Origin: an uncultured Eubacteriales bacterium
GTDB taxonomy: Bacteria; Bacillota; Clostridia; Oscillospirales; Oscillospiraceae
DNA length: 36,749 nt
NCBI GenBank assembly: GCA_900319635.1
Contig: ONPF01000008.1
Coordinates: forward strand, 1 to 36,749
Direction of reading: 5' to 3'
The position numbers and the translations under genes are program-made. Shown here piece by piece: positions 34,350-36,609 of the stretch. How positions within the stretch are numbered: position 1 is the stretch's first letter; every line of letters starts with the position of its first letter. A model generated the notes under the pieces. That model was not told the origin of the DNA. It did not search any database and saw nothing but the letters and a program-made list of their open reading frames with translations.

Positions 34350-34375
34350 GCCCGGGCAGAAGGGAAGTGAGGAAC

Positions 34376-34846
34376 GTGCCGAAGCAGCAGGGCATCAAGA
34401 AAATCGCAGATAACCGCAAGGCTTTTCACGATTACTTCGTGCTGGAGCGCTTCGAGGCGGGCATCGAGCTTGCCGGAACGGAGGTCAAGTCCATCCGCGC
34501 CGGGCAGGTGAACCTGAAGGATTCTTTCTGCACCGTGAAGGACGGAGAGCTTTTTGTCCGCGGCATGCATATCAGTCCCTATGAGCACGGCAGTATTTTC
34601 AACAAGGATCCTGTGCGTCCCCGCAGGCTTCTGATGCACAAGCGGGAGATTTTGAAGCTCAACGCCCGCGTCATGCAGGACGGCGTGGCACTGATCCCGT
34701 TGTCCCTGTATTTCAAGGACAGCCGGGTGAAGGTGGAGCTTGGCCTCTGCAAGGGCAAAAAGCTCTACGACAAGCGGCAGAGCGACGCGGATCGGGAATC
34801 CAAGCGAGACATTGACCGCATCATGAAAGAGAGGAAATACGAATGA
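34376..34846 (+). CDS. smpB: SsrA-binding protein SmpB
   Basis: This 156-residue RNA-binding protein carries tmRNA into stalled ribosomes. Conserved segments are KKIADNRKAFHDYFVLERFEAGI, ELAGTEVKSIRAGQVNLKDSF, the HISPYEHG strand and the basic C-terminal tail KKLYDKRQSDADRESKRDI (each named to mark position). The gene starts with GTG. The GTG at 34376 (VPKQQGIKK) is preferred over an in-frame GTG at 34367 because it gives the family's usual N-terminus and better spacing to AAGGGA. It overlaps the cyclophilin gene by four bases. Its partner RNA, ssrA, lies 824 bases downstream. Confidence 0.95.
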   Translation: MPKQQGIKKIADNRKAFHDYFVLERFEAGIELAGTEVKSIRAGQVNLKDSFCTVKDGELFVRGMHISPYEHGSIFNKDPVRPRRLLMHKREILKLNARVMQDGVALIPLSLYFKDSRVKVELGLCKGKKLYDKRQSDADRESKRDIDRIMKERKYE

Positions 34847-35361
34847 GCAATCCCATCGTGACCTTTGAAATGGAAAATGGCGACGTGATGAAGGCGGAGC
34901 TTTACCCGGAGATCGCCCCCAACACGGTCAACAACTTCATCTCCCTGGTGAAGAAGGGCTTTTATGACGGCCTGGTTTTCCACAGGGTCATCCCTGGCTT
35001 CATGATCCAGGGCGGAGACCCCAAGGGTATGGGCATCGGCGGCCCCGGCTACGGCATCAAGGGCGAGTTTCTGCAGAACGGCTTCAAAAACGAGCTGAAG
35101 CATACCCGCGGCGTGCTGTCCATGGCCCGCGCGGCGAATCCCAACTCCGCCGGCAGCCAGTTCTTCATCATGCATGAGGACAGCCCTCATCTGGACGGCG
35201 GTTACGCGGCCTTCGGCAAGCTCATTGAAGGCATCGAGGCGGTGGATCATATCTGCGACGTGCGCACCGACTGGAACGACAAGCCCCGGATCCCCCAGGT
35301 GATGAAGAAGGTCACCGTGGAGACCTTCGGCGTCGAGTACCCCGAGCCGGAGAAGTGCTGA
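34843..35361 (+). CDS. Cyclophilin-type peptidyl-prolyl cis-trans isomerase
   Basis: This is a 172-residue cytoplasmic single-domain cyclophilin. The catalytic-site segments are present: FHRVIPGFMIQGGDP with the arginine, SMARAANPNSAGSQFFI and the HLDGGYAAFGKLIEG segment. No signal peptide is seen, so it should assist folding in the cytosol. It starts within the smpB stop (ATGA), so the two are cotranscribed. A GC-rich hairpin lacking a T-run follows at 35372. Confidence 0.93.
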   Translation: MSNPIVTFEMENGDVMKAELYPEIAPNTVNNFISLVKKGFYDGLVFHRVIPGFMIQGGDPKGMGIGGPGYGIKGEFLQNGFKNELKHTRGVLSMARAANPNSAGSQFFIMHEDSPHLDGGYAAFGKLIEGIEAVDHICDVRTDWNDKPRIPQVMKKVTVETFGVEYPEPEKC

Positions 35362-35371
35362 GCTGCCTGTA

Positions 35372-35392
35372 GGGGAGGGGCTTGCCCCTCCC
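35372..35392. repeat. GC-rich palindrome, possible dispersed repeat
   Basis: GGGAGGGG, CTTG, CCCCTCCC forms an 8-bp stem ten bases after the cyclophilin stop. It has no T-run, so it is a poor terminator. Its form (GTAGGGG...CCCCTCCCG) resembles intergenic palindromes common in related genomes, but no second copy occurs in this window. Confidence 0.5.
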
Positions 35393-35413
35393 GCACTTCC
35401 TGACATTGAAAGC

Positions 35414-35528
35414 AAAACCAAAGCCCGGTAAAGTGGCGTTGGTTTTGAGAGGAAGACGGAAGGAACGGACATGGAGCTTTCCCGGCGCTTATGCAAACCG
35501 GGGAAGCGGAATGGAGCAAGCTTCCTCT
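35414..35528 (+). repeat. Structured repeat, copy A (upstream of ssrA)
   Basis: This 115-base unit is repeated at 35547-35661. It contains three nested pairings. AAAACCAA (35414) pairs with TTGGTTTT (35439-35446). AGAGGAAG (35448-35455) pairs with CTTCCTCT (35521-35528). Inside the latter, GCTTTCCCGG (35476-35485) pairs with CCGGGGAAGC (35498-35507). It has no convincing reading frame of its own. A structured RNA or a miniature mobile repeat is likely. Confidence 0.8.
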
Positions 35529-35546
35529 CGGGCTATTGTTCTTAAC

Positions 35547-35661
35547 AAAATCGAAGCCCAGCGGAGTGGGTTCGATTTTGAGAGGAAGAGGGAGATTGCG
35601 GATATAGAGCTTTCCCGGCGCTTACGCAAACCGGGGAAGCGGAATGGAGCAAGCTTCCTCT
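35547..35661 (+). repeat. Structured repeat, copy B (upstream of ssrA)
   Basis: This is the second copy. AAAATCGAA (35547-35555) pairs with TTCGATTTT (35571-35579), AGAGGAAG (35581-35588) with CTTCCTCT (35654-35661), and GCTTTCCCGG (35609-35618) with CCGGGGAAGC (35631-35640). Compared with copy A, two pairs of the first helix have changed on both sides (C-G to T-A, A-T to G-C), so pairing is kept. It ends eight bases before the tmRNA. A possible promoter (TTGAGA at 35578, 17 bases, GATATA at 35601) lies within this copy but is not shared by copy A. Confidence 0.8.
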
Positions 35662-35669
35662 GACGTTAC

Positions 35670-36020
35670 GGGGGTGTAACGGTTTCGACGGGGGTGTGGA
35701 GGCAGGAATAGCGGGCGGATGCGCCCAGCATCCATAAAATGGGCAAACCTTTATAAATTAAAGAACGACGATAACGCTGTTCTCCTCGCTGCTTAAATAG
35801 CGAGCGTTCCGCCTGGGAGGCCCACGGCCCGGGATGGAGCGTCGATGAGTGGGGAACGTGCGCGCGGTAAGCTTTGCCCGCGCCACGCATCATGAAGCTA
35901 CCAAGTCCCGCAGCATGACGGCTTGCGTCGGGACGAGGGAATGCAAAGAACCGTCTGCGCCCGGAGAAGTTCCTGTTAAAACGCTTTCGGACGGGGGTTC
36001 AACTCCCCCCACCTCCACCA
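35670..36020 (+). ncRNA. ssrA: Transfer-messenger RNA (tmRNA)
   Basis: This 351-base RNA rescues stalled ribosomes with SmpB. The 5' end GGGGGTGTAACGGTTTCGAC and the 3' end GGGGGTTCAACTCCCC...CACCTCCACCA form the tRNA-Ala-like half. GGGGGTG pairs with CACCTCC with the G3-U wobble read by alanyl-tRNA synthetase, and CCA is encoded. The tag frame at 35761-35796 reads (K)NDDNAVLLAA followed by TAA and an out-of-frame TAG. The resume codon would be AAG or the following AAC rather than the commoner GCN. Hairpins and pseudoknot-like GC segments follow. It belongs with smpB just upstream. Confidence 0.95.
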
Positions 36021-36024
36021 CGTT

Positions 36025-36062
36025 AGTACGCAAGCTATGATACAATAGCTTGCGTACTTTTT
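36025..36062 (+). terminator. Terminator of ssrA
   Basis: A perfect 14-bp stem (AGTACGCAAGCTAT) with a six-base loop is followed by TTTTT. It begins five bases after the CCA end. Confidence 0.92.
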
Positions 36063-36313: not shown

Positions 36314-36395
36314 GCTTTGCACCCCGCCTATATTCAAAACCCCTTGCGTCAAGAGGCTTTTTGACTTCTCGCATACTCTATACAGAAATATCGAG

Positions 36396-36425: not shown

Positions 36426-36467
36426 CGCTGATTAGGCCAGTAAGGAACAACTCAGATTCTGTAAATA

Positions 36468-36609
36468 GTGTGCGAGAAGAGCAAAGCGTGTGCGAGAAGA
36501 GGTAAACGTGTACAATAAGGTATTTCGTGTGCGATAAGGCATTTCGTGCGCAAAAAGACAAAATGTGTGCGTAAGGTACATAAAAATGTGTGCGTAAGGT
36601 ACATAAGCA
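36468..36609. repeat. Seven-copy tandem array, period about 20 bp
   Basis: Degenerate units start at 36468, 36488, 36508, 36527, 36546, 36565 and 36588, giving spacings of 20, 20, 19, 19, 19 and 23 bases. The shared core is GTGTGCG followed by a purine-rich AAG or TAAGG. Copies 1-2 resemble each other most, as do 3-4 and 6-7. The array ends about 53 bases before a gene start. It is not a CRISPR, since there are no unique spacers. Iteron-like or other repeated protein sites are the simplest reading. Confidence 0.8.

Follow-up and report, generated by a model that had tools for sequence, protein, structure and literature searches.

Interspersed, structured repeats of approximately 150 nt with mobile-element traits are known in Firmicutes as the bcr1-type repeats of the Bacillus cereus group. 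The repeats described here belong to another host group, and they are likened to bcr1 by general description, not by sequence. Among described elements, the nearest in kind is the CGTC-tagged REP (Di Nocera et al. 2013, PMC3733652), which that paper characterizes by a stem of 8–9 bp, a loop of 4–5 nt and a CCA-type tail. CGTC repeats are listed there in five phyla, Firmicutes not included, and the string "clostridi" is absent from the text of the paper. Such elements share with our unit the terminal CGTC, the multicopy and intergenic occurrence, the position near ORF 3′ ends, the dimers and the lack of an adjoining transposase gene, whereas ours is set apart by its length of 110–120 nt, by an additional hairpin and by a long arm with interruptions. 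The end CGTC of our unit is unpaired, its placement is close to gene 3′ ends and no Y1_Tnp gene lies beside it, but its stem departs from the 8–9 bp and 4–5 nt of the definition and lacks complementary AT at stem positions 1 and 2, since the stem on the CGTC strand begins with AG. Because the stem definition fails, the unit is not filed as a CGTC-tagged REP, although it agrees with that group in its tag, in where it lies and in lacking a transposase alongside. GTAG REPs and BIMEs with their RAYT, according to the same paper (PMC3733652), are likewise folding intergenic repeats with inverted pairs and mosaic clusters; our unit differs from them in its tag, CGTC, and in having no Y1_Tnp gene adjoining it (0/14 loci). 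A covariation-based collection of structured RNA candidates from the human microbiome includes 250 palindromic ones among 3161, some of them perhaps REPs (Fremin and Bhatt 2021, PMC8040213), and the present family could be among these candidates without name or context.

Our searches of the literature returned no description of the repeat family and no named interspersed family for these Clostridia. The units form what is apparently an undescribed, non-coding family of interspersed, intergenic and structured repeats of approximately 110–120 nt in gut-type Clostridia. Common members of this class thereby gain a large family of interspersed repeats in which covariation is clear.

Two repeat units ahead of ssrA

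The window, that is, the whole stretch of 36,749 nt that was analysed, carries on one strand smpB, a cyclophilin-type peptidylprolyl isomerase gene, two repeat units and ssrA, in this order. The gene for the SsrA-binding protein, smpB, is located at 34367–34846 (+ strand; NCBIfam PRK05422.1, 210.5 bits, cut-off 130). The isomerase ORF at 34843–35361 (+ strand), the immediate upstream neighbour of the repeats, matches PRK10903.1 (NCBIfam) with an E value of 3.4e-30; its score is under that model's own cut-off, and the subtype is therefore left unnamed. The tmRNA gene ssrA was located at 35670–36020 (+ strand) by Rfam RF00023 with 165.1 bits, despite which it is absent from the ARAGORN output. 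One weak promoter-like site lies at copy A (35406–35434).

A first-pass annotation had pointed to two similar units directly ahead of ssrA, and a repeat search confirmed copies at 35413–35528 and 35546–35661, each 116 nt long, 84% identical and 133 nt apart. As the RF00023 match starts at 35670, copy B ends 8 nt ahead of ssrA. The true unit is slightly longer than had been proposed, since it includes a terminal GACG up to 35665. For comparison with related units, we used A1, an alignment of 40 units (33 from the genus and the genome of the window, 7 from other public contigs), from which the covariance model R1 was derived. Copy B with its terminal GACG occupies 35545–35665 (+ strand), with an R1 match at 35545–35664 of 140.2 bits, and copy A occupies 35412–35531 (+ strand), with a match of 96.2 bits. 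When A1 columns were transferred to the window by hand, hairpin P1 of copy B fell at 35546–35580 (arms 35546–35557 and 35569–35580; columns 6–17 with 29–40), the outer helix P2 at 35587–35661 (arms 35587–35599 and 35649–35661; columns 48–60 with 116–128) and the inner hairpin P3 at 35609–35640 (arms 35609–35617 and 35632–35640; columns 74–82 with 98–107), all on the + strand. The terminal tag, read directly from the sequence, is GACG at 35662–35665 (+ strand; CGTC on the − strand), and this is the side on which the unit docks at the ends of genes.

Both copies folded more stably than all of their 200 dinucleotide shuffles, with z-scores of −4.06 for copy A and −6.89 for copy B. The two helix-1 pairs that had been noted as differing on both arms are present in the alignment, at columns 11/35 (C-G in A versus T-A in B) and 13/33 (A-T in A versus G-C in B). 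Copy A is otherwise unusual: its P1 loop is decayed, the terminal tag is missing and, in the family register, 5/12 P2 pairs are broken (columns 51, 55, 57, 58 and 59), because, within P2, the differences from copy B are confined to the 5′ arm. It folds instead through a shifted pairing of P2. A single position separates the two copies over columns 72 to 128, and this near-identity, together with the changed 5′ arm, makes copy A look like a chimera of two subtypes, as far as the sequences can indicate. An ORF at 35382–35663 spans both units, yet the copies differ by 1-nt indels, and a protein-coding element was rejected.

A dispersed family with a conserved fold

Each unit consists of a separate hairpin P1, a longer arm in which P2, with 12 pairs and gaps, encloses P3, and the terminal GACG (read as CGTC on the opposite strand), which directly follows the 3′ arm of P2 in most rows of A1. 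Across the wide set, much variation is seen inside the arm. The first-pass annotation had suggested that the pairing itself is maintained by compensatory change, and A1 bears this out: 96.0% of 1428 cells are paired against a shuffled mean of 82.6%, and double changes occur in 28/36 pairs (14.8 when shuffled) and in 182 cells (47.7 when shuffled). These values were matched in 0/500 shuffles, although the shuffles yield no probability because the units are mutually related, and pairing fell to 37–49% when the 3′ partners were slid along A1. Neither of the outcomes that had been named as refuting, drift lacking an excess of double changes or a coding element, was found.

With two nearly fixed G-U columns left out, G-U cells (19) are about as frequent as A-C cells (21) in A1, which indicates no preference for RNA of the + strand. 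An RNA could still be read from the + strand of the unit, since this strand folds more stably, in 39/40 units as they stand and in 28/40 with the two fixed G-U pairs set to G-C. The P1 loop often reads CGNAG. GNA loops form very stable DNA mini-hairpins, and the resemblance is no more than a hint.

The search with a covariance model in the same genome and its relatives, as had been proposed, returned many matches. R1 matched 17 sites in the genome of the window (E 0.1) and, at E 0.001, 28 sites in G043, 22 in G027, 7 in G132 and 3 in G095. BLAST with copy B gave matches in 44/61 sampled genomes of the genus, the genome of the window included. R1 matches were present in 10/196 genomes sampled from the class and 2/199 from the phylum, the genome of the window being counted in both; these are lower bounds, because the filters were strict and R1 was fitted to the genus, and both phylum-sample genomes belong to the same family as the window. 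The family is present in many further Clostridia beyond the genus: a P1 pattern scan of named genomes returned at least 120 stretches, and carriers among the matches listed include Oscillibacter valericigenes (Oscillospiraceae), Pseudoflavonifractor and Caproiciproducens galactitolivorans (Acutalibacteraceae). That no named family covers the units, as had been remarked, agrees with Rfam: at the gathering score, the stretches searched contained only tRNA, tmRNA, TPP, glycine and SECIS matches, none of them on a unit. A blastn search with copy B gave no match in phages or plasmids, and the reading of the unit as cargo of either was rejected. In IMG/VR, 15 viral-contig stretches (L332–L346) carry the P1 pattern, in DNA that may belong to the phage or to its flanking host sequence. 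We consider it very probable that the units are a dispersed repeat.

Spread and candidate enzymes

One orthologous gap, located through the flanks of one copy in the genome of the window, was compared in 21 chosen genomes. In five of these, a single unit directly adjoins the stop codon; the tag of the unit in G043 is truncated. G039 has a composite containing two units head to head, a short P1-like match is present in G030, and the remaining 14 have no match. The filling differs per lineage, and no clean empty site was seen at this gap. The first-pass annotation had offered three options, namely a structured ncRNA, a processing signal or a small mobile repeat that can fold. The last fits best, because the unit is multicopy, is present or absent at one orthologous gap, and occurs in head-to-head pairs and in mosaic composites. 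We infer that it spreads as a non-autonomous mobile repeat with an enzyme supplied from elsewhere.

The composites in G039, of which nine of approximately 390 bp were aligned (among L178–L188), hold a head-to-head unit pair between end hairpins. They speak for a MITE, which would have arisen by deletion from an ordinary insertion sequence bearing terminal inverted repeats, as do the contig ends that fall inside repeat copies on C12, C16, C19 and C34. Single units, however, lack the composite ends, no target duplication was seen at the one orthologous gap compared and no parent element was encountered; an origin as a MITE is unlikely in our estimate. The G039 composites end in GAGTTCAGAGGGG..CCTCTGA on one side and in TAACT..AGTTA on the other. 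By eye, some of the composite end parts recur in G050 and G057 without a unit.

A further reading is a true REP element: the unit would then be a palindrome that a RAYT/Y1 tyrosine transposase, encoded in the genomes that carry it, mobilizes in the form of single-stranded DNA. Its multicopy and intergenic nature, unpaired four-letter end tag, inverted pairs and position at gene 3′ ends are all in keeping with this, and the genome of the window carries Y1_Tnp genes. However, none of the 14 Y1_Tnp loci, a count that covers the Y1_Tnp class only, holds a unit, and the unit-bearing genomes G043, G027 and G044 gave no Y1_Tnp match at E 0.001, an absence that may be a gap because these genomes are incomplete. 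Moreover, two Y1_Tnp loci of the genome of the window (L051 and L052) bear, in and beside the Y1_Tnp genes, a separate repeat, GTAGGGGCGACCC..GGTCGCCC, which, read by eye, is likely a GTAG-type REP with its RAYT. We therefore regard a REP proper as improbable, if marginally less so than a MITE. Under the preferred reading of a non-autonomous repeat, we can only guess at the enzyme that moves it and at whether the substrate is folded single-stranded DNA, the latter because the unit-rich genomes G043 and G027 gave no Y1_Tnp match.

Units dock at gene, tRNA and ssrA ends

Placement was assessed on 179 distinct units (87 from the genus, 92 from the wide set) taken from chosen loci, not by random draw, with a simple ORF rule; units inside large ORF calls (17 genus, 21 wide) were set aside, and some of these calls are surely spurious. 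Where a neighbour was called on the GACG side, it is antisense, so that this side looks onto a gene 3′ end, in 45/68 genus and 47/65 wide units. Within 30 nt of the GACG end, 12 genus and 17 wide units have an antisense tRNA, compared with a same-strand tRNA in 2 and 3, respectively. A strict sequence test identified docking at a tRNA 3′ end in 25/179 units. Among whole-genome R1 matches, 5/28 in G043 and 1/7 in G132 lie 4–7 nt from a tRNA 3′ end, while none of the 17 in the genome of the window lies at this distance from the 3′ end of a listed tRNA. In that genome, however, a piece at C31 15800–15830 (L003), directly behind a unit, resembles a tRNA 3′ end and matches the tRNA-Leu next to it over approximately 24 nt, and another tRNA-3′-end-like piece, at C11 16610–16640 (L007), likewise directly follows a unit. 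These pieces may be integration-site remnants.

Placement behind tRNA and protein genes in antisense orientation would also suit a transcription terminator module, and some tRNA-docked relatives (L065 and L137) show, by eye, a hairpin and T run in the tRNA direction. However, neither copy A nor copy B contains a terminator-like site on either strand, the sole one found being a strong hairpin with a T run 3′ of ssrA (36025–36058). In addition, at least five A residues in the 9 nt before P1 were seen in only 8/25 tRNA-docked units versus 22/154 others. A terminator module thus has a low probability, on a par with that of a MITE.

A tmRNA over the cut-off was found in 46/61 genomes of the genus, and 47 ssrA loci were read (G042 twice). 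In 23/47 of these loci, GACG lies at most 8 nt from the mature ssrA start, against a shuffled mean of 0.7 and maximum of 3, and R1 identified a wide-type unit at a 24th locus, in G008. The unit interiors at ssrA vary: besides the window type, a GGTC/GACC core was seen by eye in G027, G057, G060 and others, and units in G006, G023, G036 and G051 appear decayed, also by eye. The remaining 23/47 loci are without any unit. If the unit had arisen as a cis-acting leader or ncRNA dedicated to ssrA and had been copied round the genome afterwards, this origin could account for the docking at 23/47 loci and for the concentration of changes in unpaired columns between close orthologues (5/5 differences between copy B and its G021 counterpart, 6/7 for G044). 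Yet most copies sit elsewhere, 23/47 ssrA loci are unit-free and several ssrA copies have decayed; we rejected the ssrA-dedicated element, which we consider very unlikely. The family is also a caution against reading intergenic covariation in these bacteria as proof of a dedicated ncRNA.

Among the 23 unit-free ssrA loci, 11 have a contiguous stem of at least 7 pairs with its edge 3–8 nt upstream, versus 23/391 random intergenic positions (Fisher p 1.5e-7) and 0/64 tRNA 5′ flanks. This strict test (loop at most 14 nt, G-U at most one quarter) was applied alike to all sets, and it misses long hairpins that extend as far as the gene, as in G040 and G012. A looser test (fold z < −2, gap at most 10) was passed by 18/24 ssrA loci, G008 included, versus 25/97 random intergenic windows and 8/41 gene 5′ flanks, intergenic hairpins being common in the genus. 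These counts indicate that the genus favours a hairpin close to the 5′ end of ssrA without having it fixed. It is not strictly needed, since 12/23 unit-free loci fail the strict stem test and some ssrA copies are decayed. The repeat is one supplier of such a hairpin. A further suggestion, which we put forward tentatively and hold to be somewhat improbable, is that in this genus the front of ssrA is a hairpin slot, in which a stem a few nt ahead of the mature tmRNA is favoured while its sequence is repeatedly replaced. The mobile family, docking with its CGTC end at the ends of tRNA and tmRNA genes, would be one recurrent supplier and would spread as a boundary module for stable RNAs.

The 5′ end of tmRNA is cut by RNase P. 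In the account that we propose, a folding, tag-ended repeat would spread between genes by means of an enzyme provided in trans, and its copies would be kept or tolerated mostly at gene 3′ boundaries and against tRNA and tmRNA ends. At the locus in the window, smpB, the isomerase gene and ssrA would share one transcript, with the hairpin of copy B 8 nt ahead of the mature tmRNA. Once the tmRNA 5′ end is cut, this hairpin might cap the 3′ end that the cut leaves on the upstream mRNA, and it may also prevent mispairing of the leader. The near-restriction of copy B differences to unpaired columns in G021 and G044 speaks for this account as well. Taken as a whole, a dispersed folding repeat with non-autonomous spread and a boundary hairpin at ssrA is on balance the probable account; the boundary hairpin is the likeliest local role of copy B, though in itself doubtful. 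The processing signal that had been considered at first pass would hold only in this local sense at ssrA. As units dock at tRNA and tmRNA ends, they make it possible to test by what route repeat hairpins arrive at transcript boundaries and what purpose they serve there.

Elsewhere in the window, short tandem repeats of the GTGTGCGAGAAG/GTGTGCGTAAGG type occupy 36463–36605, with an inverted match at 36365–36387.
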